Shown: one piece after another, positions 5,463-58,082 of the stretch
Position numbering within the stretch: the stretch's first letter is position 1
Layout of the letters: the number at the start of each line of letters is the position of its first letter
DNA from: Rhodoferax sp.
Lineage (GTDB): Bacteria > Pseudomonadota > Gammaproteobacteria > Burkholderiales > Burkholderiaceae_C
Assembly (NCBI GenBank): GCA_008015235.1
Contig: SSFF01000002.1
Coordinates: 62,001-126,000 of the forward strand
Length of the DNA: 64,000 nt
Reading direction: 5' to 3'
Made by a program: the position numbers and the translations under genes
Notes under the pieces: generated by a model
What the model was told of the DNA's origin: nothing
Database searches by the model: none
What the model saw: only the letters and a program-made list of their open reading frames with translations

Positions 5463-6419
5463 ATGTGGAGCCGCCTGCAACTCGGCCAACGCCTGCAAGC
5501 ATGGTTTGAATCGCGCCTGCCCCGGCGCGACACGGTGGAGCTGACCCAGCGCAACGTCTACATCCTGCCCACCGGCGCTGGCTGGATGCTGGCCGCTACC
5601 TTGCTGGTGCTGCTGGTGGCCAGCATCAACTACCAGCTCAACCTGGGCTACCTGCTGACCTTCCTGCTCACCGGAGCGGCCACCGTGGGCATGCACGTGT
5701 GCCACGGCAACCTGCGTGGACTCGCTATGCATTTGATAGCGCCTCACGCAGCATTCGCGGGGGCCAGCACCGCTTTTGACCTGCAACTAAGCAGCCAGCG
5801 CAAGCAGCCGCGCCCGGCCATTGCGGTGGCCGTCCTGGGCACCGGCCACTGGAGCTGGACCGACGTACCGGCCCAGGGGACATGCCGGGTGCAGGTCGGC
5901 TTTGCCCCGCAGCAACGCGGCGTGCAACCCGTGCCCACGCTGACCCTGGAAACCCGCTTCCCACTGGGCACCTTCCGCGTCTGGACCGTGTGGCGCCCGG
6001 CCTCCACCCTGGTGGTCTACCCGCGCCCTGAAGCCCATCCGCCACCGCTGCCGCCTGCACAGCCCGTGGGCGCCGGCCAGGCCCAGGCTACGCAGAACCA
6101 CCCTACCGGGGAATTCGACGGCGTGCGCGCCTACCGGCGCGGCGACCCGCTCAAGCTGGTGGTGTGGAAAAAGGCCGCCAAGAACGACGAACTGGTCAGC
6201 CGCGACACCGTCCACGCCCAGCGCAGCGAACTCTGGCTGGACCTGCAGCAGGCTGGGAGTGGCGACCTGGAGCACCGGCTCTCGCGCCTGTGCGCCTGGG
6301 TGCTGCTGGCCGAGAAGCGGGGGCTGGACTACGGCCTGCGCCTGGGTGTACAGGAGCTGGCGCCAGGTACGGGGGTCGCCCACCAAAACCGCTGCCTGCA
6401 GGCACTGGCCCGCTACTGA
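5463..6419 (+). CDS. DUF58 domain protein (MoxR cassette)
   Basis: 318 aa. Two transmembrane helices near residues 35-75 (AGWMLAATLLVLLVASINY and YLLTFLLTGAATVGMHV) are followed by a beta-rich segment and the DUF58 core, with the signature EFDGVRAYRRGDPLKLVVWKKAAK near residue 220. The family is related to VWA domains and is thought to work with MoxR in cell-envelope assembly or stress; the exact function is not known. Residues 88-101 (AMHLIAPHAAFAGA) are encoded by a copy of the dispersed repeat described in this window, read in frame, so part of the protein appears to come from a repeat insertion. Confidence 0.9.
   Translation: MWSRLQLGQRLQAWFESRLPRRDTVELTQRNVYILPTGAGWMLAATLLVLLVASINYQLNLGYLLTFLLTGAATVGMHVCHGNLRGLAMHLIAPHAAFAGASTAFDLQLSSQRKQPRPAIAVAVLGTGHWSWTDVPAQGTCRVQVGFAPQQRGVQPVPTLTLETRFPLGTFRVWTVWRPASTLVVYPRPEAHPPPLPPAQPVGAGQAQATQNHPTGEFDGVRAYRRGDPLKLVVWKKAAKNDELVSRDTVHAQRSELWLDLQQAGSGDLEHRLSRLCAWVLLAEKRGLDYGLRLGVQELAPGTGVAHQNRCLQALARY
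5724..5766 (+). repeat. Dispersed repeat, copy A, inside the DUF58 gene
   Basis: GCTAT-GCATTTG-ATAGC stem-loop, then CACGCA, then CGCGGGGGCC. It matches the intergenic copies of the family and is co-oriented and in frame with the gene (GCT = codon 88). Peptide read is A-M-H-L-I-A-P-H-A-A-F-A-G-A, parallel to copy B. Confidence 0.75.
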
Positions 6420-6431
6420 GCGCACGAGACC

Positions 6432-8447: not shown

Positions 8448-8452
8448 GGCCC

Positions 8453-9628
8453 ATGCCCGGCCCCGACCGACCTCTACCTGGCGTTTCTTCTGTGCATCGA
8501 ATTTCCTCCACGATTGCTATATTTTTAATAGCTACCTGCGCAATGAATGCGGGGGCGGCAACCCCAAAAAGCATTAAAAAGAAACCAACGGCAGCACAAC
8601 GCGCGGCCAAGGTCCAGCAGCGGGCAGCCAAGGACAGTGCATTGGCAGGCATGCCGCTCTACGCCACCCGTCCCGAGGTATTGGCCACGGTCTTCGACAT
8701 GGCCCAACGCCGTGGCATCAATACGGCCTGGGCCCAGCATGTGGTGAGTCAGGCGCGCTTCATGCCCTCCATCGTCCAGGCGGTACTGCCCGCCAGCGCC
8801 CCGAACGCCAAGAACTGGAATCTGTACCGCGAACGCTTTGTCGAGCCCAGGCGCATCGCCGCCGGGGTAGCCTTTTGGCAACAGCACCGCGCCACGCTGG
8901 AGCGGGCCCAGCAGGCCACCGGGGTGCCGGCCGAGATCATTGTCGGCATTGTTGGCATTGAAACCCTGTACGGCAAGCACAGCGGCGGTTTCCGGGTAAT
9001 TGACGCGCTGAGCACCTTGGCGTTTGATTTCCCTGCCAGCCACCCGCGCGCAGCCCAGCGTGCAGCCTTTTTCCAGGGTGAACTCGAGGCCTACCTGGCG
9101 TTGACAGTCCGCAACGACATGGACCCGCTGGCCCTGCGGGGCAGCTACGCCGGTGCCATGGGCATGCCGCAGTTCATGCCATCGAGCTGGGAGAAATACG
9201 GTATCGACTTCGATGGCGACGGCAAGGTCGATCTTTTCAACAACCCGCAGGACGTGATCGGTTCGGTGGCCAACTACTTCAAGGCCTTCCAATGGCAACC
9301 GGGCATGCCCACGCACTATCCCCTGCAGCTGGACCGTGAGCGCGCCGACCTGGCAACCCTGTTGCTGCCCGACATCAAGCCCACGTTCTCCGCCTTCGAC
9401 ATGGTGGCCCACGGCGCGCGGCTGGACGCAGCCGGCCAGCAACATACCGGTGCACTTGCCCTGCTGGAGCTGCAAAACGGCGGCGATGCACCGCTTTACC
9501 TTGCAGGTACGGACAACTTCTATGCCATCACCCGCTACAACTGGAGCAGCTACTATGCCTTGGCAGTCATTGAACTGGGTCGCGCCATCGCGCAGGCTTT
9601 GCCCGCAGCGACAGTCATGCAAAAATAG
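8453..9628 (+). CDS. mltB: Lytic murein transglycosylase B
   Basis: 391 aa. Cleaves the MurNAc-GlcNAc bond of peptidoglycan to give anhydro ends. The catalytic Glu sits in IIVGIVGIETLYGKHSGG near residue 175; GSYAGAMGMPQFMPSSWEKYGIDFDGDGKVDL and VIGSVANYFKAFQW are standard MltB motifs. The N-terminus is a signal peptide whose hydrophobic core (residues 22-35, AIFLIATCAMNAGA) is encoded by a copy of the dispersed repeat. There is no clear lipobox (the Cys lies inside the core), so the protein may be soluble periplasmic. A GTG at 8492 could be an alternative start giving a shorter n-region. It lies 5 bases after the TgpA gene. Confidence 0.93.
   Translation: MPGPDRPLPGVSSVHRISSTIAIFLIATCAMNAGAATPKSIKKKPTAAQRAAKVQQRAAKDSALAGMPLYATRPEVLATVFDMAQRRGINTAWAQHVVSQARFMPSIVQAVLPASAPNAKNWNLYRERFVEPRRIAAGVAFWQQHRATLERAQQATGVPAEIIVGIVGIETLYGKHSGGFRVIDALSTLAFDFPASHPRAAQRAAFFQGELEAYLALTVRNDMDPLALRGSYAGAMGMPQFMPSSWEKYGIDFDGDGKVDLFNNPQDVIGSVANYFKAFQWQPGMPTHYPLQLDRERADLATLLLPDIKPTFSAFDMVAHGARLDAAGQQHTGALALLELQNGGDAPLYLAGTDNFYAITRYNWSSYYALAVIELGRAIAQALPAATVMQK
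8514..8572 (+). repeat. Dispersed repeat, copy B, forming the mltB signal peptide core
   Basis: TTGCTAT-ATTTTTA-ATAGC stem-loop, then CTGCGCA, ATGAATGCGGGGGC. Nearly the same as intergenic copy F (29636). Co-oriented with mltB, frame GCT = codon 22. Reads A-I-F-L-I-A-T-C-A-M-N-A-G-A, the hydrophobic core and probable cleavage region of the signal peptide. Confidence 0.85.
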
Positions 9629-9631
9629 GCC

Positions 9632-19414: not shown

Positions 19415-19506
19415 TCACAAACTCATGGGGCAAACCTGCCGAAAGGCAGGGACGCAAAGCCTCCGGTCCACACTGTGCTGCACAACGGATAGCGGGGTTG
19501 CCATCT
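19415..19506 (+). ncRNA. Cyclic-di-GMP-I (GEMM-I) riboswitch aptamer
   Basis: The conserved GEMM-I core is plain: GGGGCAAACC (19427-19436), a perfect 6-bp stem CCTGCC/GGCAGG capped by a GAAA tetraloop (19435-19450) as in the Vibrio Vc2 aptamer, then GGGACGCAAAGCCTCCGG (19449-19466), a second helix, and AGCGGGGTTGCC (19491-19502) closing onto ATGG/CCAT of P1. The GAAA loop is the one that docks into the tetraloop receptor. It controls the gene beginning at 19566. The direction of regulation is not certain; the region after the aptamer can hide the ribosome binding site. Confidence 0.93.
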
Positions 19507-20030: not shown

Positions 20031-22472
20031 TCATGGCGGCTGGTGCCGCCAATAGCGGCGCTGGAGATCACGTTCGCACAACATCTCGGCAGGACGCTCG
20101 CTGTGCCACTGCATGGCACCACAGTGGGGTGAATCCCGCACCACAATGCCGCGCTGGTGGTAGCGCTCCAGCACCGGAGGCGAAGGGTGGCCAAAGCGGT
20201 TGCGGTAGCCCGACTGCACCCAGGCAAAGCGCGGCTGCACGGCATCCAGGAAAGCGGCCGTGCTCGAAGTCTTGCTGCCATGGTGTGGCACCAGCAGCAC
20301 ATCGGCGTGCAGCCGTCCCTCTTGCGACTGGAGCAGGCGCGCCTCCTGGGCCTGCTCGATGTCACCGGCCAGCAGGACCGTCTGTCGGCCATTCGAAATC
20401 CGCAGCACACAGCTCAGGGCGTTGGGCGGCATCTGCACCTGGCGCGCATAGTCCGGCAGGTCCGGATGCAATACGCTGAACTCCACCCCATCCCAATGCC
20501 AGCCTTGTCCAGCTTCGCAACGCACCCCACTGCGCTGCTGCTGCAGCGGGTGTGCAGGCTCCAGTGAACTGAGCAGCGTCGCACCAGGGTGCATCTGCAG
20601 CACGGCCTGGGCACCGCCCACGTGGTCGCTGTCGCGGTGGCTGAGCACCAGCATGTCCAAGGGCCATTGCAGGGACTGCAGCAAGGGCACCACTACCCGG
20701 TGACCGGCGTCCGATTCCAGCCCATAGCGCGGCCCGGCATCGAAAGCCAGGGTGTGGCTGTGGGTGCGCACCAGCACGGCGTTGCCTTGTCCGACATCGG
20801 CGGCCAGCAGCGCAAACTCACCTGGGGCAGGGACAGCGGGCCGCCACAAGGCCAGCGGCAAAAGCAAGGGCAAGGCCAGGGAACGCATGCGCCATGACCA
20901 AGGAAACACCAGGATAGCCGCTCCCAGGCAGGCAAACAGGCCCAGCGCCAAGGGCGGACGTGGCCACCACCACACCGCCCCGGGCCACACGGCCATCCAG
21001 GCCAACACGGCGTGCATGGCCTGTGCCGCCACCGCGGCCATGTCCCAGAAAACCGGGTGCAGCACGCCCAGCAGGCTCAGGGGCGTCAGCACCAGCGTCA
21101 CCCAGGGCACGGCCAGCACATTGGCCAGCAAACCCACCAGCGACACCTGTCCAAACAACAAGATGCCCAGCGGCGCCAAGGCCAGGCCAATGGTCCACTG
21201 CTCCCGGAAAATATGGCCAATTCGGTCCCTGGCCCGCATATTCATTGACGAATCTACTCCTGAATTTGTAGCAAACAGCACGCCTACCGCCACAAAGCTC
21301 AGCCAGAACCCGGCCTGCAACCAGGCCCAGGGGTCCCACAGCAGCACCACCGCGCACACGGTCAGCCAGACCAATGGCCAAGGCCAGCGTGCACCGTTGC
21401 TGCGCAGCGTCACCGCAACCAACAGCATGAGCACAGTACGCTGGGCCGGCACGCCCCAGCCCGCAAACAGTGCATAGGCCCAGGCCAGCAGGACGCCACC
21501 CCACAAGCCCGCCAGACTGGCAGGCACGCGCAAGCACGCCCTGGCAGACCAACGCCAGGCCCGCCCCACCAGCAGGGCCGCGAGCCAGGCAAACAGGGTC
21601 ACGTGCAGGCCGGAAATACTGACCAGATGGGCGACCCCCGTGGCCCGGTACACGTCCCAGTCCGCGCGATCAATGGCCGCCTGGTCCCCCACCACCAGCG
21701 CAGCAATCAGCGCGCTGGCGGCCGGTTCCGGCACGGCCGCCCCGATCTGGGCGCGTACGCTGTAGCGCGCCGCGTCGATGGCCGAGCGCCAGCCACTGTC
21801 CAAGCGCACCGGCACCGGGTCACGCACTCCGGCACGCACGTAGGCCTGTGCCTGCACCCCCTGCTCCCAAAGGTAAAGCTCGTAGTCGAATCCATGGGGA
21901 TTGATGTTTCCATGCGGGGCCTTCAGGCGCAGGCGCATCTGCCAACGCTCGCCCGGGCGCACCGCCACCGGTTGGCGTTGCAGTTCCAAACCTCCCCCCG
22001 CGGTACTACCCCAGCCGCTGTACCAGCCCACATCGATGCGCCGGGGCAATGCCACGGCCTGCCCGTCCGTTTCGGCGGCCTCGGGCTCCAGCCGAAAACG
22101 CACGCCGGCAGCTTGCTGCTGCGGCAGGCCAACCACCAGCCCCCGCACATCCACGTCACGCCCCTCCAGGCTGGCAGGCAAGGCTGACGCCGCGAAATAC
22201 GCCGCGCGCCAACCCGTGCTGCCGAAACCCAAGGCCAGACAACCCACCGACATTGCCAGCAGCGCGATCGCCGAGGGTACGCATATTGCTCTTCTTTTGA
22301 TAGCTAACAAGGCAAGCAGCATGCCGGGAAACATGCAAATAACTGCATAAACCTCCGACGCCCAGAGTTGTGTCTGCTGCAGCTGCAAGGCAATACCCAG
22401 CACCCATGCGCTGAACACCAGCCCCCATGTCGGGGGGCGCGGATGGACAGCGGCAGCGTCGCGTATGGGCAT
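20031..22472 (-). CDS. comEC: ComEC/Rec2 DNA-uptake channel
   Basis: 813 aa, normal for the family. Inner-membrane channel that brings single-stranded DNA into the cytoplasm during natural transformation. N-terminal DUF4131-like OB region (to about residue 200), the Competence domain with SISGLHVTLFAWLAALL near 275 and many helices, then a metallo-beta-lactamase domain with LSHRDSDHVGGAQAVL near 615 and LLVPHHGSKTSSTAAFLDA near 720. Residues 401-414 (ATNSGVDSSMNMRA), in a loop of the membrane domain, come from a copy of the dispersed repeat, and a degraded copy seems to underlie codons 57-66. Divergent from the transglutaminase gene over 95 bases. Confidence 0.96.
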   Translation of the reverse strand: MPIRDAAAVHPRPPTWGLVFSAWVLGIALQLQQTQLWASEVYAVICMFPGMLLALLAIKRRAICVPSAIALLAMSVGCLALGFGSTGWRAAYFAASALPASLEGRDVDVRGLVVGLPQQQAAGVRFRLEPEAAETDGQAVALPRRIDVGWYSGWGSTAGGGLELQRQPVAVRPGERWQMRLRLKAPHGNINPHGFDYELYLWEQGVQAQAYVRAGVRDPVPVRLDSGWRSAIDAARYSVRAQIGAAVPEPAASALIAALVVGDQAAIDRADWDVYRATGVAHLVSISGLHVTLFAWLAALLVGRAWRWSARACLRVPASLAGLWGGVLLAWAYALFAGWGVPAQRTVLMLLVAVTLRSNGARWPWPLVWLTVCAVVLLWDPWAWLQAGFWLSFVAVGVLFATNSGVDSSMNMRARDRIGHIFREQWTIGLALAPLGILLFGQVSLVGLLANVLAVPWVTLVLTPLSLLGVLHPVFWDMAAVAAQAMHAVLAWMAVWPGAVWWWPRPPLALGLFACLGAAILVFPWSWRMRSLALPLLLPLALWRPAVPAPGEFALLAADVGQGNAVLVRTHSHTLAFDAGPRYGLESDAGHRVVVPLLQSLQWPLDMLVLSHRDSDHVGGAQAVLQMHPGATLLSSLEPAHPLQQQRSGVRCEAGQGWHWDGVEFSVLHPDLPDYARQVQMPPNALSCVLRISNGRQTVLLAGDIEQAQEARLLQSQEGRLHADVLLVPHHGSKTSSTAAFLDAVQPRFAWVQSGYRNRFGHPSPPVLERYHQRGIVVRDSPHCGAMQWHSERPAEMLCERDLQRRYWRHQPP
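21231..21275 (-). repeat. Dispersed repeat, copy C, inside comEC
   Basis: On the minus strand TTGCTAC-AAATTCAGGAG-TAG, then CGTCAATGAATATGCGGGCC. Very like intergenic copy D (49741), which has the same TTCAGGAG inner segment and TGCGGGCC tail. Co-oriented with comEC, frame GCT = codon 401. Confidence 0.8.
22279..22307 (-). repeat. Possible degraded dispersed repeat, copy E, in 5' part of comEC
   Basis: Minus strand: TTAGCTAT-CAAAAGA-AGAGC then AATATGCG. It keeps the 5' stem-loop and an ATGCG but lacks the middle and the GGGC tail. The GCT codon is again in frame (codon 57). Could be chance. Confidence 0.35.
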
Positions 22473-28723: not shown

Positions 28724-29623
28724 ATGCTGCTGCGCATCACCCACGACACCCACTACCGCTACAGCCCGGATGTCGAAACCGCCCAGCACATGGCCTACCT
28801 GCGCCCGCGCGACCATGCCAGCCAGCAGTTGCAATCGTTCGCGCTGGACATCACCCCCGGGCCCAGCCTGTGCCGGGCGCAGACCGATGTGTTCGGCAAC
28901 ACCCGCCACTTCTTCGCCATCGACATGGCCCATCCGGAACTGCACGTGGTCGCCCGCAGCGTGGTGCGCACGCAGACGCCCGCCGCACCCGAAAGCCGCT
29001 GCACCTGGGAACAGGCGCAAACCGCCTTCACCTACCGCGGCGCCCAGGCCACGGACCCGGCGGCCGAGTTCACCTTCGCCTCACCCTTCGTACCGCTGCA
29101 ATCGGCCTTTGCCGACTATGCGGCGCCCAGCTTTGTGCCCGGCGCGCGGGCACTCGACGCCGCGCTGGACCTGGTGCAGCGCATGCACCACGATTTCACC
29201 TACGAAAGCCGCAGCACCGAGATCAGCACCCCGGCCCAGCAGGCACTGGCACAACGCAAGGGCGTGTGCCAGGACTTTGCCCACATTGCGGTCGCCTGTC
29301 TGCGCAGCATGGGCCTGCCGGCGCGCTACGTCAGCGGCTACCTGCTGACGCAGCCGCTGCCCGGGCAGCCGCGCCTGGTCGGGGCCGATGCCTCGCACGC
29401 CTGGGCCAGCGTCTACCTGCCCGACCTGCCTGAGGGCCAGCGCTGGGTCGACCTGGACCCGACCAACAACCGCTGGGGCTGGGGCTCGCCGGGCGCAGAC
29501 TATGTGACCGTGGCCCTGGGGCGTGACTTCGGTGACGTGTCACCATTGCGTGGTGTCATCCAGGGCGGCAGCCGCCATGTGCTGTCGGTGGGTGTGACGG
29601 TGGAGCCAGTGGCTGAGGACTGA
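28724..29623 (+). CDS. Transglutaminase-like protein of the ATP-grasp/alpha-E cluster
   Basis: 299 aa. N-terminal bacterial transglutaminase-like region (MLLRITHDTHYRYSPDVETAQHMAYLRPRD) and a catalytic domain with RKGVCQDFAHIAVACLRSM (Cys near residue 183), DASHAWASVYLP (His) and WVDLDPTNNRWG (Asp). No signal peptide or membrane helix, so cytoplasmic, as are its partners. It probably hydrolyses or transfers peptide/isopeptide bonds in the same pathway as the ligases, but no substrate is known. Last gene of the cluster; a dispersed repeat starts 13 bases after its stop. Confidence 0.92.
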   Translation: MLLRITHDTHYRYSPDVETAQHMAYLRPRDHASQQLQSFALDITPGPSLCRAQTDVFGNTRHFFAIDMAHPELHVVARSVVRTQTPAAPESRCTWEQAQTAFTYRGAQATDPAAEFTFASPFVPLQSAFADYAAPSFVPGARALDAALDLVQRMHHDFTYESRSTEISTPAQQALAQRKGVCQDFAHIAVACLRSMGLPARYVSGYLLTQPLPGQPRLVGADASHAWASVYLPDLPEGQRWVDLDPTNNRWGWGSPGADYVTVALGRDFGDVSPLRGVIQGGSRHVLSVGVTVEPVAED

Positions 29624-29635: not shown

Positions 29636-29700
29636 TTTAGCTATATTTTCAATAGCAGCGTACGCAATGAATACGCGGGCATGATGCCTATTTGGCCTCT
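29636..29700 (+). repeat. Dispersed repeat, copy F, between convergent genes
   Basis: TTTAGCTAT-ATTTTCA-ATAGC stem-loop, TACGCA, ATGAATACGCGGGC, then the tail GATGCCTATTTGGCCTC. It follows the transglutaminase stop in the same orientation. The tail runs into the opposing DMT exporter gene and supplies its stop codon (plus 29688-29690). Confidence 0.88.
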
Positions 29701-30608
29701 AAACTGCGGCCCGTCGGCTCGATGATGACCAGGGCGATGCCGCACACCAGCAGGCCGGCACCGGCCCAGAAGCTGGCCGTGGGCAGTTCCGAAAACAGCA
29801 GCCAGCCCAGCGTGGGGCTGAACAGCAGCAGGCTGAAGCTGCCGGCCTCCACCGCCGAAGCGTCCCCGGCGCGGTAGGCAAAGAAGTAGCACAGGTAGAT
29901 GCCGCTGTTGCTCACGGCCACCACGGGCAGCAGCCACAGCAGATCGGGGGTCAGCTCGGGCAGGGAAAAACCGCTGAGCAGCCCAAACGCACACCAGCAC
30001 GCCACCTGGCTCCAGGTCAGCACCGCCATCGGGTGTTCCTGACCCGAATACTTTTTCAGCACCACGCCCAGCAGGGCCTCCATGAGGGCCCCCAACAATG
30101 CCACCAGCGCGGCTGCCTGGAAGGCCCCGGCACCGGGCTGGAAAATGACCAGCACCCCGCCAAAGCCCACCAGCACGCCGCACCAGCGCAGCCAGTGCGG
30201 CTTTTCGCGCAAGAAAAGCACCCCCAAGGGCAACATGAACAGCGAGCCGGTCATCAGGTAGGCACTGGCTTCGGCCAGTGGCAGGTGTGCCACGGCCCAG
30301 GCTGCGCACCAGGCCGAGACCACGATGAAGAAGGCCCGCAGCAGGTGCAGCTGCGGATTGCGCGTGCGCGCCACACGACCGCGCGTCCACAGCGTGATCG
30401 GCCCGACCAGCAGGGACAAGACCGCGCAGGCCTGCAGAAACAGGGTCTGCTGCGGCGTGGCCCCCTGCGCCATGATGTGCTTGTTGCAGGCGTCGAGCAC
30501 CGACCAGCAGGCCATTCCCAGCATTACCAGCAAGACGCCACGCGTATTGCCGGACAAGCCTTGCCAGCAATTGCGCAATACCGCTTCCCAGCGGCGCAAG
30601 AACCCCAA
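29688..30608 (-). CDS. EamA/DMT-family transporter
   Basis: About 306 aa, ten predicted transmembrane helices in two EamA halves, as usual for drug/metabolite exporters. Visible: GVLLVMLGMACWSVLDACNKHIMAQG (helix 1), PLAEASAYLMTGSLFMLPLGVLFLREKPHWLRWCGVLVGFGGVL (end of first half) and FSPTLGWLLFSELPTASFWAGAGLLVCGIALVI (end of second). Substrate unknown. The start is uncertain: no early ATG fits, and I choose a TTG at 30608 with GAGGA seven bases upstream, 10 bases after the proQ stop; a longer reading frame would overlap proQ. Its last codons lie in dispersed repeat F. Confidence 0.85.
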   Translation of the reverse strand: MGFLRRWEAVLRNCWQGLSGNTRGVLLVMLGMACWSVLDACNKHIMAQGATPQQTLFLQACAVLSLLVGPITLWTRGRVARTRNPQLHLLRAFFIVVSAWCAAWAVAHLPLAEASAYLMTGSLFMLPLGVLFLREKPHWLRWCGVLVGFGGVLVIFQPGAGAFQAAALVALLGALMEALLGVVLKKYSGQEHPMAVLTWSQVACWCAFGLLSGFSLPELTPDLLWLLPVVAVSNSGIYLCYFFAYRAGDASAVEAGSFSLLLFSPTLGWLLFSELPTASFWAGAGLLVCGIALVIIEPTGRSLEAK

Positions 30609-34453: not shown

Positions 34454-37264
34454 TCAGTGCGCCTGGTCCCAGTTCGGCCCGACCCCGACCTCGGCCACCA
34501 GCGGCACCTGCAGGCTGGCGACCCCGCCCATGAGCCTGGGCACTTCGGTGCGCACCCAGTCGACCTCGGCTGCGGGCACCTCGAACACCAGTTCGTCGTG
34601 CACCTGCATGATGACCTTGGTTTGCAGTCCCTGGTCGTCCAGCGCCTTTTGCACCGCCACCATGGCCAGTTTGATCAGATCGGCCGCTGTGCCCTGCATG
34701 GGCGCGTTGATGGCGGCGCGCTCCAGGCCGGCCAGCTGGGCCCCCTTGGCAGTCTGGATGCCGGCCATCTGCAAGCGGCGACCGAACACGGTTTCCACAT
34801 AACCCTGGGCACGGGCCGTGGCCCGGGTCGTCTCCATGTAGGTCTTCACGCCGGGGTAGCGCTCGAAATAGCGCGTAATGAAATTCTTGGCCGCGGTGTT
34901 GTCAATCCCTAAGCTGCGTGCCAGGCCAAAGGCGCTCATGCCGTAGATCAGGCCGAAGTTGATGACCTTGGCATAGCGGCGCTGCTCGCTGCTGACCGCG
35001 TCGAGCGCCACGCCGAACACTTCGGCCGCGGTGGCACGGTGCACGTCGTGGCCTTCCCGAAAGGCGCGCAACAGGGCTTCGTCACCACTGAGGTGGGCCA
35101 TGATGCGCAGTTCGATCTGCGAGTAGTCGGCGCTGGCGATGACGCTGCCCTCGGGCGCCACAAAGGCCTCGCGCACGCGCCGGCCCTCCGCGGTCCGGAT
35201 CGGAATGTTCTGCAGGTTCGGGTCGTTGCTGGACAAACGCCCGGTCACCGCCACGGCCTGGGCGTAGTGGGTGTGCACGCGCCCGGTGCGCGGCAGGGCC
35301 AGCTGGGCCAGCTTGTCGGTGTAGGTGCCCTTGAGCTTGGACAGACTGCGGTGCTCCAGCAGCTTGGCCGGCAGCGGGTAGTCCTCTGCCAGCTTTTCCA
35401 GCACCTCTTCGTCGGTGCTGCGGGCTCCGGTGGCGGTCTTCTTGACCACCGGCATGCCGAGCTTGTCGAAAAAGATTTCGCCGAGCTGCTTCGGTGACGC
35501 CAAGTTGAAAGGCTGGCCGGCAATTTCATAGGCCTCCTGCTCCAACTGCAGAATGCGCTGGCCCAGTTCGTGGCTTTGGCTGGCCAGCGTGGCTGCGTCA
35601 ATGCGCACACCATTGCGTTCGATGCGGTACAGCGCTTCGCTGCTGGCGATCTCCAGCTCGTAGATGAAGCGCAGCTTGGCATCCGCCTCGATGCGCGGCC
35701 ACAGCGCAAGGTGCACGTCCAGCGTCATGTCGGCGTCTTCGCAGGCGTACTGGCTGACGCGCTCGATGTCCACCTGGTCGATGGTGATCTGGTGCGCGCC
35801 CTTGCCGCACAGGTCCTCGAAGCTCAGGCCCTTGCGCCCCACGTGGCGCAGGGCCAGGCTCTCCAGTCCGTGGGGCTTGTCGACTTCGAGCACATAGCTC
35901 TGCAGCATGGTGTCGTGGGCGTAACCGCGCACTTCGATGCCATGGTTGGCAAACACATGGCGGTCGTATTTCACATGCTGGCCCAGCTTCAAGGCCTGCG
36001 GGTTCTCCAGCCAGGGTTTGAGCTTCTTCAACACTTCGTCGCGCGGCAGTTGCGCCGGGGCGCCGGGGTAGTTGTGGGCCAATGGAATGTAGGAGGCGCT
36101 GCCGGGCGCGATGCTCAGCGAAATGCCCACGATCTCGGCGCGCATTTCGTCAAGTAAGGTGGTTTCGGTGTCCAGCGCTGTCAACGGGGCCGACGCGATC
36201 TTCGCCAGCAATGTGTCGAACGCAGCCCAGTCGAGGACGGTGTCGTACTGCAGGTCGCCCGTTACGCTTGAGCTCGCGGCCGCCCCGCCGAACATGTCGT
36301 CCATGGCAGCAGCCGGTGGGGCAGGAGTGCTGAACGCTACTGGCGTACTGGCCGCAGCTGTACCACCGGCCAGCTGTGCCTCCATGGCCTTGGCCAGACC
36401 CTTGAACCCGTATTTGGTATAAAAACCATGCAGAGCCCGCGTATCCTCTGCATTAGCCACTACAGAATCCATAGCAGGCAGACCATCCACCCAACCTGTC
36501 AGGTCGCAGTCGGTCTTGATCTTCAGCAGCTGCTGCCCGGTAGGCAGCCAATCCAGCGCTTTGCGCAGGTTCTCCCCGGCCACACCTTTGATGTTTCCAG
36601 CGTTGGCCACCACGCCTTGCAGCGAACCGTACTCGGCCAGCCACTTGGCAGCGGTCTTGGGACCCACCTTTTCCACACCGGGCACGTTGTCCACGGTGTC
36701 GCCCACCAGGGTCTGGTAGTCGAGCATCAGGCTGGCCGGCACCCCGAACTCGGCCTGGACTCCGGCCAAATCGCGGCGCTTGCCGTTCATGGTGTCGATG
36801 ATGACGATCTTGTCGGTCACCAGCTGGGCCAGGTCCTTGTCGCCACTGCTGATGACCACGTCCAGCCCCTGCTGCGCCGCCGTCACCGCCAGGGTACCGA
36901 TCACGTCGTCGGCTTCGACGCCGGGCACATCCAGCACTTTCCAGCCCAGATGCCGTACCACCTCGTGGATGGGCGCGATCTGGCTGCGCAGGTCGTCGGG
37001 CATGGGGTCGCGGTGGGCCTTGTACTGGGGGTAGATGGCGTCACGGAAGGTCGGGCCCTTGGCGTCGAACACACAGGCGACGAAAGCGGCCGGGTACTCC
37101 TTGCGCAGGCTGTTCATCATGTTGATCATGATGCGGATGGCACCTGTCTTCTGCACCGTTCCGTCTTCCAGCGTGGTGCTCATGCTGTCGCCACCGGCGA
37201 AAAAGGCGCGGTACAGGTAGCTGGAACCATCGACCAGCAGCAGGGTGTTTTGGGGATTGCTCAT
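34454..37264 (-). CDS. polA: DNA polymerase I
   Basis: 936 aa from the ATG giving MSNPQNTLLLVDGSSYLYRAFF; an upstream start 8 codons earlier is possible. All three domains are present. The 5' nuclease covers about 1-290 (DGSSYLYRAFFAG, VEADDVIGTLA, SSGDKDLAQLV). The 3'-5' exonuclease is intact, with LDTETTLLDEM, LKLGQHVKYDRHVFANHG, AHDTMLQSYVL and YACEDADMTLDVH. The polymerase has VIASADYSQIELRIMAHLSGD (motif A Asp), RRYAKVINFGLIYGMSAFGLA (O-helix) and QVHDELVFEVP (motif C). Repairs gaps and removes Okazaki primers. Confidence 0.98.
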   Translation of the reverse strand: MSNPQNTLLLVDGSSYLYRAFFAGGDSMSTTLEDGTVQKTGAIRIMINMMNSLRKEYPAAFVACVFDAKGPTFRDAIYPQYKAHRDPMPDDLRSQIAPIHEVVRHLGWKVLDVPGVEADDVIGTLAVTAAQQGLDVVISSGDKDLAQLVTDKIVIIDTMNGKRRDLAGVQAEFGVPASLMLDYQTLVGDTVDNVPGVEKVGPKTAAKWLAEYGSLQGVVANAGNIKGVAGENLRKALDWLPTGQQLLKIKTDCDLTGWVDGLPAMDSVVANAEDTRALHGFYTKYGFKGLAKAMEAQLAGGTAAASTPVAFSTPAPPAAAMDDMFGGAAASSSVTGDLQYDTVLDWAAFDTLLAKIASAPLTALDTETTLLDEMRAEIVGISLSIAPGSASYIPLAHNYPGAPAQLPRDEVLKKLKPWLENPQALKLGQHVKYDRHVFANHGIEVRGYAHDTMLQSYVLEVDKPHGLESLALRHVGRKGLSFEDLCGKGAHQITIDQVDIERVSQYACEDADMTLDVHLALWPRIEADAKLRFIYELEIASSEALYRIERNGVRIDAATLASQSHELGQRILQLEQEAYEIAGQPFNLASPKQLGEIFFDKLGMPVVKKTATGARSTDEEVLEKLAEDYPLPAKLLEHRSLSKLKGTYTDKLAQLALPRTGRVHTHYAQAVAVTGRLSSNDPNLQNIPIRTAEGRRVREAFVAPEGSVIASADYSQIELRIMAHLSGDEALLRAFREGHDVHRATAAEVFGVALDAVSSEQRRYAKVINFGLIYGMSAFGLARSLGIDNTAAKNFITRYFERYPGVKTYMETTRATARAQGYVETVFGRRLQMAGIQTAKGAQLAGLERAAINAPMQGTAADLIKLAMVAVQKALDDQGLQTKVIMQVHDELVFEVPAAEVDWVRTEVPRLMGGVASLQVPLVAEVGVGPNWDQAH

Positions 37265-37378
37265 GGCGTGGATTGTGCCTGCCTGCACCGGGGTTTTCCG
37301 TTGGGTAAACCCTGCCGCCTACAATGCCACTTCTGCGCAAGCGCACACTGGCGCGCGCCCTCTCCTTGAGCAGTTCCC

Positions 37379-45234: not shown

Positions 45235-45258
45235 GCCAAGCCTCCCTGGAAGCCGGGA

Positions 45259-45326
45259 ATTGCTACCATTTCAGTAGCAAATTACGCAATCTGCATGCGG
45301 GCCAGAGGCCTTTTTGGCATGCAAAT
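45259..45326 (+). repeat. Dispersed repeat, copy G, after the desaturase gene
   Basis: ATTGCTAC-CATTTCA-GTAGC stem-loop, TTACGCA, CTGCATGCGGGCC, then AGAGGCCTTTTTGGCATGC. The tail contains GGCC-AGA-GGCC-TTTTT, a miniature terminator shape. The most complete copy of the family in the window. Confidence 0.9.
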
Positions 45327-48028: not shown

Positions 48029-49048
48029 TTATGCGTGTTCGTACCAGTTCTTGGTGCGGTTGACCACATGCACCACCGCCAGCATGACCGGCACCTCGAT
48101 GAGCACGCCCACCACAGTGGCCAAAGCCGCGCCCGAGTTGAAACCGAACAGGCTGATGGCAGCCGCCACCGCCAGCTCGAAAAAATTGGATGCGCCGATG
48201 AGCGCCGAGGGGCAGGCAATGTTGTGCTTTTCGCCGACCGCGCGGTTGAGCCAGTAGGCCAGCGCCGAGTTGAACACCACCTGGATCAGGATGGGCACGG
48301 CCAGCAACGCAATGATGAGTGGCTGCTTCAGGATCGCCTCACCCTGGAAGGCGAACAACAGAACCAGCGTGGCCAGTAAGGCCGCAATCGACCAAGGGCC
48401 GATGCGTTGCATGGCAGCGTCAAACGCCGCCGCACCGCGGCGCAACAGCGCCTTGCGCCAGGCCTGGGCCAGCAGCACGGGGATGACGATGTAGAGCACC
48501 ACCGACACCAGCAGCGTGCTCCAGGGCACGGTGATGCTCGACAGGCCCAGCAGGAATGCCACCAGGGGCGCAAAGGCCACGACCATGATGCTGTCGTTGA
48601 GCGCCACCTGCGACAGCGTGAAAAGCGGGTCACCATTGGAGAGACGGCTCCAGACAAACACCATGGCCGTGCACGGCGCCGCCGCCAGCAATATCAGTCC
48701 GGCAATGTAGCTGTCCAGCTGGTCCGCAGGCAGCAAGGGCGCAAACCAGTGGCGAATGAACAGCCAGCCCAGAAAGGCCATGGAAAAGGGCTTGACCAGC
48801 CAGTTCACGAACAGGGTGACGCCAATGCCCTTCACGTGCTTGCGCACCTCGCCCAGGGCGCCAAAGTCCACCTTCACCAGCATCGGGATCACCATGACCC
48901 AGATCAGCAGCCCCACGGGCAGATTAACCTTGGCAACTTCCATGGCACCCACCGCCTGGAACAGGCCAGGAAACCACTGGCCCAGCGCGATGCCCGCGAC
49001 GATGCACAAGGCCACCCACACACTCAAATAACGCTCGAACAAATTCAT
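48029..49048 (-). CDS. acr3: ACR3-family arsenite efflux permease
   Basis: 339 aa, ten predicted transmembrane helices. Exports arsenite. The essential Cys of the family is in ILLAAAPCTAMVFVWSRLSNGDPLFTLSQVALND (about residue 130). N-terminus MNLFERYLSVWVALCIVAGIALGQ and C-terminal GASNFFELAVAAAISLFGFNSGAALATVVGVLIEVPVMLAVVHVVN are typical. It works either alone by the proton gradient or with ArsA as energy source; the arsA gene in this operon makes the latter possible. An upstream dispersed repeat separates it from the LMW-type arsC. Confidence 0.96.
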   Translation of the reverse strand: MNLFERYLSVWVALCIVAGIALGQWFPGLFQAVGAMEVAKVNLPVGLLIWVMVIPMLVKVDFGALGEVRKHVKGIGVTLFVNWLVKPFSMAFLGWLFIRHWFAPLLPADQLDSYIAGLILLAAAPCTAMVFVWSRLSNGDPLFTLSQVALNDSIMVVAFAPLVAFLLGLSSITVPWSTLLVSVVLYIVIPVLLAQAWRKALLRRGAAAFDAAMQRIGPWSIAALLATLVLLFAFQGEAILKQPLIIALLAVPILIQVVFNSALAYWLNRAVGEKHNIACPSALIGASNFFELAVAAAISLFGFNSGAALATVVGVLIEVPVMLAVVHVVNRTKNWYEHA

Positions 49049-49085
49049 CTGTTGATTCCCTTCACAACCATCACCACACCCTCTG

Positions 49086-49146
49086 ATCGCTATTTTTTCA
49101 ATAGCTGCTTGCGCAGCATAAATGCGGGCTGGGTGCCAAAAAGACT
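49086..49146 (+). repeat. Dispersed repeat, copy H, inside the ars operon
   Basis: CGCTAT-TTTTTCA-ATAGC stem-loop, TTGCGCA, CATAAATGCGGGC, TGGGTGCCAAAAAG. Lies in the 168-base gap between acr3 and the LMW-type arsC, opposite in orientation to the operon. Together with copy D it widens two spacers of the operon. The remaining bases of this gap show no other feature. Confidence 0.88.
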
Positions 49147-49216
49147 ATAAACATCGACCCCACGCCGCAGACCGTGCAGACCACGTGCACCGGTGCAGGG
49201 GCCGGGTTTGCACCGC

Positions 49217-49717
49217 TCATGCCTGGGCCAACTCCTTGGCCGTTTGCTGCAGGGCCATGGCCTGCAGCTTGTCGGCCGGCAGGTTCACCAGCAGGTCCAG
49301 ACGGCGGCGGATGGCGTGCAGCGTGGCCTTGAAAGCCTCGGCCTTCTCGGCGTCGCTGCCGTCTCCGGCGGAGGGGTCGGCATAGCCCCAGTGGGCCGTG
49401 GCCGGTTTTCCGGGCCAGAACGGGCACACCTCACCCGCAGCGTTGTCGCAGACGGTGATGATCAGGTCCATGTGGGGCGCACCGGGGGCGGCAAACTCGT
49501 CCCAGCTTTTGCTGCGCAGGCCCTCGGTGGAAATGCCTGCGTTGCGCAGGGTCTGCAGGCCGATGGGATGGGGCTGCTGGTTGGCACGCGGGCTGCTGCC
49601 GGCCGAAAAGCCGCGAAAGCGCCCGCCCCCGATGTGGTTGAGCACGGCTTCGGCCAGGATGCTGCGGGCGGAGTTGTGGGTACAGAGGAACAGGACGTTC
49701 AAGGGTTTGGAAGACAT
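49217..49717 (-). CDS. Arsenate reductase / low-molecular-weight phosphatase family, thioredoxin type
   Basis: 166 aa. LMW-PTP fold: FLCTHNSARSILAEAVLNH carries the CX5R anion-binding loop at residues 11-18, and HWGYADPSAG holds the Asp (general acid). DLIITVCDNAAGEVCPFWPG has the redox Cys pair of ArsC (Cys near 90 and 97), so it probably reduces arsenate through a Cys relay to thioredoxin. This is a second, unrelated arsenate reductase beside the glutaredoxin-type ArsC. Second gene of the ars operon, after arsR. Confidence 0.88.
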   Translation of the reverse strand: MSSKPLNVLFLCTHNSARSILAEAVLNHIGGGRFRGFSAGSSPRANQQPHPIGLQTLRNAGISTEGLRSKSWDEFAAPGAPHMDLIITVCDNAAGEVCPFWPGKPATAHWGYADPSAGDGSDAEKAEAFKATLHAIRRRLDLLVNLPADKLQAMALQQTAKELAQA

Positions 49718-49740
49718 AAGAGACCTTGGAAGTGACTAAA

Positions 49741-49804
49741 TTGCTATGTTTTCAGGAGCTGATTTCGTATATTGCATGCGGGCCAGGTGCCGATTTGGCT
49801 TGCA
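49741..49804 (+). repeat. Dispersed repeat, copy D, inside the ars operon
   Basis: TTGCTAT-GTTTTCAGGAGC, then TTTCGTATATTGCATGCGGGCC, AGGTGCCGATTTGGCTTGC. It sits in the 96-base gap between arsR and the LMW-type arsC. Its inner TTCAGGAG matches the in-gene copies C and K. Confidence 0.88.
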
Positions 49805-49813
49805 AAACAGGCG

Positions 49814-50143
49814 TTAGCAGCTGGCGCAGCCGGCGTCCTCTGCGTCCACCGCGCACGGCTCCCCCTGGCAGCAGTGCTCGGTCAGATAGGCCAGCAACTG
49901 GTTCATGTGGGCAAACTCGGCGCGGTAGATCAGGTTGCGGCCATCGCGCTGCTGCGACACCAGACCGGCACCCAGCAGCTCCTTCAAGTGAAAGGACAGG
50001 GCCGTACCCGCCACACCCAAGCTTTCCGAAAGGCGCGACGGCGTCATGCCGCCCTGCCCGGCCACCACCAGCGCGCGGAAAATCTGCAGCCGCGAACCCT
50101 GGGCCAGGGCCCCCAGCGCACGCACGGCTTCGGTTTCTGTCAT
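49814..50143 (-). CDS. arsR: ArsR-family arsenic-responsive repressor, C-terminal Cys type
   Basis: 109 aa. Winged-helix repressor (LGALAQGSRLQIFRALVVAGQGG, MTPSRLSESLGVAGTALSFHLKELLGAGLV, QRDGRNLIYR). The recognition-helix CxC metal site of plasmid R773 ArsR is missing. Instead there is HCCQGEPC at residues 90-97 and further Cys near the end (GCASC), an arrangement like the Cys95/Cys96/Cys102 site of the Acidithiobacillus regulator. So arsenite sensing is likely to use a C-terminal site. AGGAAAGGACGCC precedes the ATG. First gene of the ars operon. Confidence 0.93.
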   Translation of the reverse strand: MTETEAVRALGALAQGSRLQIFRALVVAGQGGMTPSRLSESLGVAGTALSFHLKELLGAGLVSQQRDGRNLIYRAEFAHMNQLLAYLTEHCCQGEPCAVDAEDAGCASC

Positions 50144-52948: not shown

Positions 52949-53043
52949 TTGCGCGGAATGCAACATCACAAGCTTGTCACGCTTTCGTCACAAGCCCCCG
53001 CCATCATCGGCCGCTTGTTCCACCACCCCTCGCGGGAAGTTCC

Positions 53044-54219: not shown

Positions 54220-54300
54220 GCCCGTCACCCGACCCGGCGCCCAGTGCGGTACCGGGTCGGTGCCCTCTTCTGATTGCGGGTGGATGTATCGGGGAGAAAC

Positions 54301-54358
54301 TTACTATCTATTTTGTAGCTTAGTAGGCAATATTCATGCGGGCCAGGGGCTGTTTTAC
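54301..54358 (+). repeat. Dispersed repeat, copy I, after glpQ
   Basis: TTACTAT-CTATTTT-GTAGC stem-loop, TAGGCA, ATATTCATGCGGGCC, AGGGGCTGTTTTACC. In the same orientation as glpQ, 81 bases after its stop. Its tail holds the stop codon of the opposing ankyrin gene (54355-54357). Confidence 0.85.
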
Positions 54359-54738
54359 CTGTATTCCTGGCTGCTGCTCAAACCCACCCAGCGCCGCCAG
54401 GACCAGCGATTGGGGGCGGCCTCTGGGCCGTTCGCTGTGGCATCCACCAGGCCCAGGTCCGTCAAACGTTGCTCCACTGAGGCCAGACCCGCCTGGCGGG
54501 CCGCCTGCAGGGGGCGCATCCCATCCAGCGCTGAAAACTGGTCGGGTTGGGCTCCATGGTCCAGCAGAGTGTGGGCCACAGCTTCCTGGCGGGACAACAG
54601 GGCTGCCACCAGCACGGTGCCGGAATACTCGGGGTGGATGTAATTGACATCGACGCCCGCACCCAGGTGATAGCGCACCAGGTCCAGATCGCCCGCACAG
54701 GCGGCGTCAAAGAGTTCTTTCCAGTTTCCAGAGGACAT
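54355..54738 (-). CDS. Ankyrin-repeat protein
   Basis: 127 aa from MSSGNWKELFDAACAGDLDLV. Two or three ankyrin repeats cover residues 5-90: WKELFDAACAGDLDLVRYHLGAGVDVNYIHPEYSG, TVLVAALLSRQEAVAHTLLDHGAQPDQFS, ALDGMRPLQAARQAGLASVEQRLTDLG. No signal peptide; cytoplasmic, protein-protein contact. The partner is unknown. A GTG at 54750 could extend it by four codons. The C-terminal codons and stop lie in dispersed repeat I. Confidence 0.8.
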   Translation of the reverse strand: MSSGNWKELFDAACAGDLDLVRYHLGAGVDVNYIHPEYSGTVLVAALLSRQEAVAHTLLDHGAQPDQFSALDGMRPLQAARQAGLASVEQRLTDLGLVDATANGPEAAPNRWSWRRWVGLSSSQEYR

Positions 54739-55195: not shown

Positions 55196-55205
55196 AAGAA
55201 CTCCA

Positions 55206-55649: not shown

Positions 55650-55691
55650 GGAGAACCTTTCATTGGAAAGAAAAAGCATTCAGGGCGACGG

Positions 55692-58082
55692 TCACACCGG
55701 TGTGAGCTTGGCCACGCTCAGCGCCAGCCATTTGGCGCCGTGGCGCGGGAAGTCGATGTGGGCGCGGGCATCTGCACCCACGCCTTCGATGGCGAGCACG
55801 GTGCCTTCGCCAAATTTGTTGTGGAACACCTTCTGGCCTTTCCTGAAGCCGGTGTCCGACTCGGTCTTGCGCGCCACTTCGGGCAACTTTTCAGTGCCGA
55901 ATTGCACACCAGCCCGCGCAGAATATGCGGAGGCAGCTCCTGAATTCGTAGCATAGCCGCCACCCCAACTGCGTTGCGCCGTCATCGGATTCAGCGCAGC
56001 GGTGCGGGGGCTGAGCCACTTCAGACACTCGTCGGGCAGCTCGTCGAGAAAGCGGCTGCTGGGGTTGTAGCGGGTCTGGCCGTGCAGCATGCGGGTTTGC
56101 GCCAGCGTCAGGTACAGGCGCTTGCGCGCCCGTGTGATGGCCACGTACATGAGGCGGCGTTCTTCCTCCAGACCGTCGCGGTCGTTCATGGAATTTTCGT
56201 GCGGGAACAGGCCCTCTTCCAGGCCCGTGATGAACACGCAGTCAAACTCCAGGCCCTTGGCCGAGTGCACGGTCATGAGCTGGATGGCTTCCTGCCCGGC
56301 CTGGGCCATGTTGTCACCCGCTTCCAGCGCGGCGTGGGTCAGGAAGGCGGCCAGCGGCGACAGGGTTTCGCCGGTGTCGCCGACCTCTCCCGCATCCATG
56401 CTCTCTGGCACTGCTGCCGCGGCCTGTGCAGCCGGGCTGCGCGCCGCGGCTTCCATGCCCGGCGCTTCGCGGCCAAAGCCCTCCTGCATGACAAAGCTCT
56501 CGGCGGCGTTGACCAGTTCTTCCAGGTTCTCCAGCCGGTCCTCGCCTTCCTTGTCCAGGCGGTAGTGCTCGATGAGGCCGCTGTGCTCCAGCACCAGCTT
56601 CACGATTTCGCTTAAGCGCAAGTTGCCGGTCTGCTCGCGCATCACGTCCACCTTGGCCACAAAGGTGGCCATGGCAGTACCGGCACGGCCGGTGAGTGAG
56701 CTTACGGCGTCGTGCAACGAGCAGCCCAGGTCGCGGGCAATGTCTTGCAGCTGCTCGACCGAGCGCGCTCCGATGCCGCGTGCCGGAAAGTTCACCACAC
56801 GCAGGAAGCTGGTGTCGTCGTTGGGGTTCTCCAGCAGGCGCAGGTAGGCCAGTGCGTGCTTGATTTCGGCGCGTTCGAAGAAGCGCAGGCCGCCGTACAC
56901 GCGGTAGGGCAAGCCAGCGTTGAACAGCGAGGTTTCCACCACCCGGCTTTGCGCGTTGGAGCGGTAGAGGATCGCAATTTCGTTCTTGGGCACGTCGTCG
57001 CGCACCAGCTGCTTGATCTCATCCACCACCCAGCGCGCTTCGTCAAAGTCGCTGGGGTTGGACACCACGCGCACCGGTTCGCCCGCCCCCTGGTCGGTGC
57101 GCAGGTTCTTGCCCAGGCGGTTGGCGTTGTGGCCGATGAGGGCATTGGCCGAATCGAGGATGTTGCTGAAGGAGCGGTAGTTCTGCTCCAGCTTGATCTG
57201 GTGGCGCACACCGAACTCGCGCACAAAGTCGGCCATGTTGCCCACGCGTGCGCCGCGGAAGGCGTAGATGCTCTGGTCGTCGTCGCCCACGGCCAGTACC
57301 GAACCGGCATCGACCACGCGGCCCTCGGGCTCGCTCTGCCCCGCCAGCAGCTTGATCCAGGCGTACTGCAGCTTGTTGGTGTCCTGGAACTCGTCGATCA
57401 GGATGTGGCGGAAACGGCGCTGGTAGTGGGCGCGGATCGGGTCGTTGTCGCGCAGCAGCTCAAACGAGCGCAGCATCAGCTCGCCAAAGTCGACCACGCC
57501 TTCGCGCTGGCATTGCTCCTCGTAGAGCTGGTACAGCTCCACCTTGCGGCGCGTGTCGGGGTCGCGCGCGTCCACGTTGTGCGGGCGCAGGCCATCTTCC
57601 TTGCAGCCAGCGATGAACCACGCCAGCTGCTTCGGGGGAAAGCGCTCGTCGTCCACGTTGTGCTGCTTGCACAGGCGCTTGATGGCGGAGAGTTGATCTT
57701 GCGTGTCGAGAATCTGGAACGATTGCGGCAGATTTGCCAGCTTGTAATGGGCGCGCAGAAAGCGGTTGCACAGGCCGTGAAAGGTGCCTATCCACATGCC
57801 GCGCGCGTTGATGGGCAGCATGGCCTGCAGGCGCGTGAGCATTTCCTTGGCGGCCTTGTTGGTGAAGGTCACGGCCAGGATGCCCGCAGGCGACACCAGC
57901 CCCTGGCTCAGCAGCCAGGCAATGCGCGTGGTCAACACCCGCGTCTTGCCGGAACCGGCCCCAGCCAGAATGAGCGCGTGCTCGTCGGGCAGGGTGACTG
58001 CCGCGCTTTGTTCAGGGTTGAGGCCCTGGAGCAGGGGCGAAAGGTCGGAATGCTGGGTAGGCGCAAAAAGGGAAGAATGCAT
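55692..58082 (-). CDS. uvrD: DNA helicase II (UvrD)
   Basis: 796 aa from [14 protein letters not shown]. 3'-5' superfamily 1 helicase for mismatch and excision repair. Motifs: [14 protein letters not shown] (I), [12 protein letters not shown] (Ia), [18 protein letters not shown] (II), [13 protein letters not shown] (III), [13 protein letters not shown] (IV), [27 protein letters not shown] (V) and [19 protein letters not shown] (VI). C-terminal tudor-like tail ([22 protein letters not shown]) marks UvrD rather than Rep. Residues 711-724 ([14 protein letters not shown]), in the linker ahead of that tail, are encoded by a dispersed repeat copy. An Ala-rich insertion lies near residue 570. Confidence 0.95.
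55911..55955 (-). repeat. Dispersed repeat, copy K, inside uvrD
   Basis: Minus strand: GCTAC-GAATTCAGGAGC, then CCTCCGCATATTCTGCGCGGGCT. Matches comEC copy C and intergenic copy D in the TTCAGGAG segment and the CGGGC tail. Co-oriented with uvrD, frame GCT = codon 711; reads A-T-N-S-G then Ala-rich, just as copy C does. Confidence 0.8.

Follow-up and report, generated by a model that had tools for sequence, protein, structure and literature searches.

A stretch of 64,000 nucleotides from the genome of a Rhodoferax sp. (assembly GCA_008015235.1, contig SSFF01000002.1, positions 62,001 to 126,000 of the forward strand; hereafter the window) carries twelve copies of a 69-bp repeat, which were located with nhmmer using a profile built from clear copies. 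The copies are found within protein-coding genes, including comEC, polA and uvrD, as well as at gene ends and in intergenic DNA. We hold with moderate confidence that the repeat is a fixed 69-bp DNA recognition sequence that arose in place, most likely a long uptake signal of the Comamonadaceae comparable to the DNA uptake sequence (DUS) and the uptake signal sequence (USS) of other bacteria.

Copy A (5720..5788, + strand; 37.5 bits) lies inside a gene (5463-6419, +) that has no NCBIfam match and whose name, DUF58, is that of the initial annotation. Copy B (8512..8580, +) occupies the signal-peptide region of mltB (open reading frame, or ORF, to 9628, +), copy C (21208..21276, -; 38.3 bits) lies inside comEC (20031-22403, -) and copy K (55888..55956, -; 47.8 bits) is near the 3' end of uvrD (55692-58082, -); these hosts were named as MltB, ComEC/Rec2 and UvrD by NCBIfam. 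Profile search and translation confirmed the initial annotation in that these four copies are real, co-oriented with their host genes and read with GCT as a codon (phase 0), and their encoded peptides (AMHLIAPHAAFAGA for copy A, AIFLIATCAMNAGA for copy B and ATNSGVDSSMNMRA for copy C) match those given there. A weak fifth sense copy in the same GCT frame, missing from that list, was found in polA (copy 36411..36479, -; 19.1 bits, phase 0; gene 34454-37288, -; PolA by NCBIfam). The degraded copy E (22285..22353, +; 18.5 bits), near the 5' end of comEC, had been assigned to the frame of that gene; it is in fact antisense (A1 frame, antisense phase 1), both in the source genome, G000, and in eight congeners. 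The remaining copies of the window are all on the + strand. One (29636..29704) lies directly past the stop codon of a gene at 28724-29623 (+) and overlaps the 3' end of the convergent gene 29688-30524 (-), and another (54299..54367) lies in the convergent gap past a gene ending at 54219 (+), overlapping the 3' end of 54355-54738 (-). Intergenic copies occur at 45258..45326, in a convergent gap past a gene ending at 45234 (+); at 49085..49153, between genes 48029-49048 (-) and 49217-49717 (-); at 49739..49807, between the latter gene and 49814-50143 (-); and at 60287..60355, between convergent genes ending at 60270 (+) and 60436 (-).

The consensus of the repeat in G000 is TTGCTAT-n-AATTT-n-ATAGCTgccTgCGCAAT..TATGCGGGCtAgaggCC.ATTTggC....AAA. 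Its information spans 69 bp with sharp edges and amounts to approximately 59 bits (155 copies of at least 30 bits), and copies above this score have 46% GC in a genome of 62% GC. Trimmed to 69 bp with GCT as the anchor, 53 copies from across the family aligned without gaps. The AT boxes have a distinctive composition. Positions 51-52 read TT in 100, AA in 45, AT in 12 and TA in 2 of 164 copies, and the TpA step is shunned both there (2 observed vs 29.8 expected) and at other steps (2 vs 20.9, 3 vs 16.3 and 8 vs 19.8). The strongest coupling is between neighbouring AT-box positions, with AA and TT interchangeable, and the AT-content profile has its period peak at 10.75 bp. From the avoidance of TpA and this helical phasing we infer that the repeat is recognized as duplex DNA and by its shape. 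The USS likewise combines a core with AT-rich flanks in helical phase.

No covariation was detected in 164 copies at 25 candidate stem pairs (GCTAT/ATAGC and others), all of which fell within 6 points of independence, invariant pairs being uninformative in this test; stem pair 3-13, for example, was paired in 65% of copies vs 68% expected. An RNAalifold consensus of 12 copies contained five weak pairs and no double change. A hairpin or RNA element was rejected on the basis of this missing covariation. Pairwise identities were close to those of column shuffles, with a maximum of 0.806 vs 0.708-0.792 in 200 shuffles and a standard deviation of 0.060 vs 0.052 (the mean is equal by construction), such that the copies look nearly independent of one another, with a slight excess of similar pairs.

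The genome-scale census covered 60 stretches of 20 kb together with the window, or 1.264 Mb of the 3.65 Mb of G000. An iterated profile identified 192 copies at 15 bits or more in this sample and none in the reversed sequence, a density of about 1 per 6.6 kb. A total of approximately 550 copies was extrapolated from the sample because genome-wide scoring covered 150 of 1333 candidates. According to a home-made gene caller, 72 copies lie inside genes (five of them in the window, 66 host genes in all), 70 lie across a gene edge and 50 are intergenic; copy B is outside the in-gene set because the caller starts mltB at 8651. Random placement would put 78% of copies in genes, 16% across edges and 6% in intergenic DNA. 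Genes are therefore avoided, yet they are far from empty of copies. Convergent gaps are favoured (41 of 120 vs 76 of 561) and divergent gaps are avoided (12 of 120 vs 151 of 561), overlaps are more frequent at 3' edges than at 5' edges (59 vs 25), and copies in tandem gaps are co-oriented and anti-oriented in nearly equal measure (34 vs 33). Copies are also spaced over-evenly, with a coefficient of variation of 0.85 and with gaps of less than 500 bp making up 0.6% vs 6.9% by chance. The best 150 copies of a second genome, G007, displayed no replichore polarity of orientation (p = 0.91); their density along the G007 chromosome is uneven (Kuiper p = 0.019), which may reflect the restriction to the best 150.

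Reading frames were assigned by the phase of the GCT anchor and are denoted S0 to S2 (sense) and A0 to A2 (antisense). Based on the window, every in-gene copy had been described as co-oriented with its gene and read in a single frame. In the genome sample, the 72 in-gene copies are distributed over phases 0, 1 and 2 as 26, 5 and 9 in the sense orientation and as 3, 24 and 5 in the antisense orientation. This amounts to 40 sense vs 32 antisense copies (p = 0.41), and the co-orientation seen in the window is thus a small-sample effect. The preference for certain frames is genuine (p = 2e-8 relative to equal use of all six), with S0 and A1 holding 50 of the 72 copies; all six frames occur, however, and the many copies in other frames are an outcome that the initial annotation had itself named in advance as contradicting its proposal. 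Selection for stop-free frames, which had also been proposed there, explains part of the pattern. Among the 120 copies not inside genes, the 64-base core is stop-free in 69% (S0), 55% (S1), 4.8% (S2), 1.4% (A0), 47% (A1) and 45% (A2), meaning that S2 and A0 are nearly always closed by stops. Openness accounts for the rarity of A0, but not for the excess of S0 and A1 over S1 and A2, where 26/5/24/5 copies (S0/S1/A1/A2) were observed vs 19.3/15.3/12.9/12.5 expected (p = 4e-5). At least two of the five in-gene S1 copies (ORFs L070:5509-7263 and L057:1786-4740) fall in the N-terminal part of the called ORF, beyond the domain that could be named, and are likely miscalled. Since openness underestimates S0 and A1 and overestimates S1 and A2, the encoded residues seem to matter as well. 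The encoded peptides are Ala-rich in S0 (AtksiA..Ads.RA) and read AR..iAQaAiksVA in A1 and LLSkLEl.AQ..RGLdA in S2. A single substitution has removed the consensus TAG from copies in S2, with T present at position 13 in 0 of 7 S2 copies (at least 20 bits) vs 40 of 46 intergenic copies.

Insertion of a Rickettsia palindromic element (RPE), to which the repeat had been likened as an in-frame, palindromic element, lengthens the host protein. Host proteins of G000 were compared with stretches of two non-carrier genomes, G018 and G044, in which no repeat match exceeded 9.8 bits. Twenty protein pairs were matched, of which two alignments ended before the copy and three were below 45% identity, leaving 15 pairs (14 copies). 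No gap was present at the copy site in six of these pairs, one of which involves a doubtful ORF stretch (L057), and gaps of 2-8 amino acids were present in seven, G000 being the longer in six of the seven. The pair for copy E of comEC had gaps of 8 and 4 amino acids on the two sides, and for copy C of comEC the non-carrier G044 was longer by 22 amino acids. The gain of about 23 amino acids in G000 that insertion of a unit predicts was seen in none of the 15 pairs. A MutS copy of 49 bits falls in a gap-free orthologue alignment. In family alignments, the uvrD products of carrier G015 and non-carrier G006 both have 25 residues across the copy span, and at the comEC site carrier G041 and G006 are of equal length, the lengths of that ComEC linker otherwise varying among carriers and non-carriers. 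Locus spans suggest similar lengths for the DUF58 gene of copy A, with G018 approximately 4 amino acids longer than G000. At the sites compared, the motif was formed in place out of coding sequence that was already there, with little or no change in length. The RPE-like reading does not hold: the proteins show no corresponding gain in length relative to orthologues, the supposed stems do not covary, and both orientations are used.

Carriage of the repeat is sharply divided within the genus. Among 25 genomes, including G000, ten have at least 108 copies, one has nine, three have one and eleven have none, as counted with a model (R1) trained on the G000 dialect under stricter filters, which could miss a strongly different dialect in apparent non-carriers. 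Non-carriers were rechecked with the sample profile at the comEC, uvrD and mltB sites and in the G018 and G044 stretches. The G000-trained model found no copies in 16 genomes of the same order that belong to other families. Copy C is present in the sense orientation in comEC of all eight site-covering genomes with at least 108 copies and in G041 and G045, which lay outside the count of 25 genomes (that is, in G000 and nine other genomes of the genus), and is absent from all 12 fully covering genomes with nine copies or fewer, as well as from G043 and G044; copy E is antisense in nine of the ten genomes that have copy C. Copy K of uvrD is present in 13 genomes of the genus, G000 included, and absent from 15, two further loci not covering the site. 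In G007, all three covered and alignable in-gene orthologues hold a copy at the same site and in the same orientation, nine further queries having been set aside because identity was low or cover was poor.

Elsewhere in the family, the uvrD copy is seen for example in Rhodoferax antarcticus, Acidovorax and Comamonas, and the polA copy is also found in R. antarcticus (L228 17271; polA by translation). A family profile was applied to the same 80 named loci around uvrD on which it had been trained. It identified copies of at least 12 bits in 30 of them, including loci from Rhodoferax, Polaromonas, Acidovorax and Comamonas, whereas the reversed control yielded none; the other 50 loci, for example those of Variovorax and Hydrogenophaga, have no copy at this score. 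At the whole-genome level, at least 150 copies each were found in R. antarcticus, Acidovorax delafieldii, Comamonas testosteroni NFYY023, Polaromonas sp. AER18D-145 and Rhodoferax STC_134, compared to 12 in Polaromonas CF318, 5 in Variovorax beijingensis, 1 in Curvibacter lanceolatus and 0 in Hydrogenophaga taeniospiralis. Lineages differ in the central part of the motif, which reads GCGCAAT.T.TATGCGGGC in G000, GCGCA.ATTCcACGGGCGC in G007 (57 copies) and GCGCTTaTtctaTAAGGGC in R. antarcticus (11 copies). The sites compared are old and shared by divergent congeners, and the motif occurs across the Comamonadaceae in lineage dialects. On a uvrD tree, the carrier state requires six changes among 34 rows and is clustered beyond shuffles, which may reflect ancestral presence followed by losses. 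One genome, G008 (L153, L128 and L097), has no R1 match and retains a motif-like uvrD peptide, AIKSGAAYAYSTGLG, together with an mltB copy of 13 bits, as if the copies of this lineage were in decay.

NCBIfam scans were performed on 60 hosts, comprising 59 of the 66 host genes and mltB (four genes cross stretch borders and three were left out). Named hosts include MutL, MutS, an AddA-like helicase, a photolyase-like protein, DnaX, DNA-deoxyinosine glycosylase and RarA, among others. The MutL gene (L056:2499-4481; MutL by NCBIfam) has two copies, one sense and one antisense, and the sense copy sits on what we presume to be a conserved stretch of MutL. Replication and repair genes make up 6 of 55 non-window hosts vs 0 of 40 length-matched, copy-free genes (p = 0.038), a count that uses E <=1e-60 on both sides, the controls having been scanned at 1e-60 and the hosts at 1e-10 to 1e-40. 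Because this class was named after the hosts had been seen, we treat the maintenance-gene bias as a lead. The pilin family ComP_DUS (PF16732) exceeded its cut-off in 26 of the 31 genomes scanned within the genus, among them both carriers and non-carriers, and in 0 of 14 control genomes; it was not found in the carriers G012 and G013. Accordingly, this pilin was rejected as a non-discriminating marker of carriage.

Three other features of the window were recorded. A c-di-GMP-I-GGC riboswitch aptamer (19420-19506, +) is the sole Rfam match at gathering score. A 264-nt inverted pair (16129-16392 and 32849-33112; 77% complementary) lies in two opposite-strand ORFs, which are probably paralogous genes. 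A 653-amino-acid, DEAD-helicase-like ORF (60436-62397, -) has a long Gly/Arg-rich repeat tail and gives rise to several short direct-repeat families (D1, D3 and D5).

The DUS of the Neisseriaceae resembles the repeat in having many dispersed copies in genes and gaps, in its association with pilus-based competence, in forming lineage dialects (PMC3630211) and in occupying permissive sites of the core genome, as described by Treangen et al. (PMC2397512). Unlike the repeat, the DUS is 10-12 bp long and occurs as intergenic inverted pairs, and its uptake has been shown experimentally, whereas uptake is a putative function of the repeat. The Pasteurellaceae USS shares the bias towards gene ends (PMC2346458), but has a preferred orientation in genes (PMC2346458), where the repeat is unbiased, and has a 9-10 bp core of unrelated sequence in another bacterial family. 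More generally, van Passel described US motifs as favouring gene ends and, in genes, one orientation, and quotes a maintenance-gene bias of DUS and USS (PMC2346458). Parts of the motif have been seen before in the Comamonadaceae. A 2017 study (PMC5217627) listed the spaced motif pairs GCTTAT(N)5AAGCG in Acidovorax ebreus and ATAGCT(N)22CAAAAG in Polaromonas naphthalenivorans, which in our register correspond to positions 24-39 and 12-45 of the repeat and are also frequent between convergent genes; Rhodoferax ferrireducens had the most pairs of all genomes, 140. In the available text of that study, the pairs are presented as separate potential novel motifs of single genomes, and no 69-bp unit, family spread, in-place evolution or function is proposed. 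RPEs are likewise dispersed short repeats found between genes and in-frame within them (PMC1950309), but are palindromic insertions, in contrast to the repeat, which lacks stem covariation and a matching length gain. The Betaproteobacterial repeat element (BRE; PMC3110155) is a short repeat of Betaproteobacteria, Comamonadaceae included, that also lies partly in genes; it is about 90 bp long, averages 69% GC in Bordetella and forms tandem arrays, with no more than 29 copies (PMC3110155). Identity of the repeat with the BRE was rejected on this description, the repeat being 69 bp long and of 46% GC, with close neighbours rare.

Several explanations for the repeat were weighed. The main rival holds that the motif is bound by a nucleoid or chromosome-segregation protein at several hundred scattered sites, being under selection for this function and tolerated in genes wherever the reading frame permits. 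The features of DNA shape and the phased AT tracts would suit such a site, as would the even spacing, the lack of insertion and the long-term conservation of sites. It would be odd for a housekeeping structure, however, to have zero or one copy in 14 of 25 genomes of one genus and nine in another, with at least 108 in the other ten, and the absence of replichore polarity and the change of dialect also count against it. We regard this explanation as unlikely, yet as one to be taken seriously. A mobile short element, whether RPE-like or resembling a miniature inverted-repeat transposable element (MITE) or a repetitive extragenic palindrome (REP), could insert in genes and intergenic DNA alike, the observed frames being what selection left over. 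Hundreds of dispersed copies of a defined 69-bp length with sharp edges are in keeping with this, as is the slight excess of similar pairs, and the insertion comparison covers in-gene sites rather than intergenic ones. Nevertheless, no matching length gain appeared in the 15 orthologue pairs or in the uvrD and comEC alignments, which strongly disfavours mobility in genes; near-identical copies are missing, and copies in frame S2 have no stop. An insertion element of the RPE, MITE or REP type was rejected for in-gene copies on orthologue lengths and the weak copy-paste signal, and we consider a mobile element improbable overall.

Marginally more improbable still, in our judgement, is an element acting at the RNA level, such as a 3' hairpin terminator or messenger RNA stabilizer that has spread into genes. 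Such an element would account for the enrichment in convergent gaps and for the preference for 3' over 5' edges. It fits poorly with the lack of covariation, with the even orientation of copies in tandem gaps, and with the presence of 72 in-gene copies in both orientations. That the in-gene similarity reflects chance or conserved residues of proteins rather than a DNA repeat finds its one point of support in the MutL copy on a presumably conserved stretch. It is refuted by the count of 192 copies vs 0 in reversed DNA and by the occurrence of the same motif on both strands, in several frames and in non-coding DNA, and we assign it next to no probability.

The pattern formed by in-place origin, tolerant frames, spacing, convergent gaps, dialects and maintenance genes is that of uptake sequences. 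As judged from the statistics of the copies, the motif would be read as double-stranded DNA, through its base sequence and its rigid, helically phased AT tracts. Within genes, at the sites compared, existing coding sequence has been converted to the motif in tolerant frames and then long kept; this would be driven by a process that favours motif-bearing DNA fragments, be it by drive or by selection. The likeliest such process would be sequence-specific DNA uptake in natural transformation, in which type IV pili would bind the motif and homologous recombination would then spread motif-bearing alleles. The result would be an uptake signal with lineage dialects and repeated losses, and the agreement of frames in genes would be a by-product, in that the tolerated frames give Ala-rich, stop-free peptides.

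A number of observations weigh against an uptake signal. The 69-bp span is several times longer than known uptake sequences, and the density of about 1 per 6.6 kb is below that of H. influenzae and Neisseria, whose genomes are said to hold approximately 1,300-1,500 copies each. Verminephrobacter aporrectodeae, a congener of a transformable species, has a single match. The congener G042, which is 99% complete, carries a uvrD copy of 45 bits, yet a ComEC search of it at 1e-40 gave no match. The ComP_DUS pilin occurs irrespective of carriage and does not follow the distribution of the motif. The contrast in maintenance genes is slight and post hoc, with 21 of the 40 controls lacking a family name at the cut-off. 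Small length differences are seen at some sites, with G000 up to 8 amino acids longer, and intergenic copies lie outside the insertion comparison. Finally, the over-dispersion of pairwise identities, with a maximum just above all 200 shuffles, possibly points to some copying or to a shared constraint.

Selective transformation has been reported in the family. In Verminephrobacter eiseniae, transformation requires pili and withstands competition from foreign DNA (Davidson et al., PMC4212676), and A. temperans was transformed only by DNA of its own species (PMC4212676); the accessible part of that article names no sequence behind this specificity. No uptake sequence for the Comamonadaceae was found in the titles and abstracts of the literature searched, which was without preprints and most subscription papers. 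To the fuller proposal we give even odds: that the Comamonadaceae have their own 69-bp uptake sequence, by far the longest, extending over six to seven helical turns and recognized through its bases and the shape of its AT tracts; that it exists in dialects and has apparently been lost several times; that parts of UvrD, ComEC, MutS and MutL were rewritten by it in place; and that it may explain the selective transformation of the family, as a further lineage beside the Neisseriaceae and Pasteurellaceae. Were the repeat an uptake signal, the Comamonadaceae would join the two families whose uptake sequences are well known. The repeat would also be a candidate for the specificity of transformation in Verminephrobacter and in Acidovorax, which we take to be the genus of A. 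temperans. Furthermore, the presence of carriers, non-carriers and apparently decayed lineages in one genus would make selfish molecular drive and selection directly testable against each other. Even if its function is a different one, a 69-bp DNA signal rewrites protein sequence in place, including that of DNA-repair proteins.

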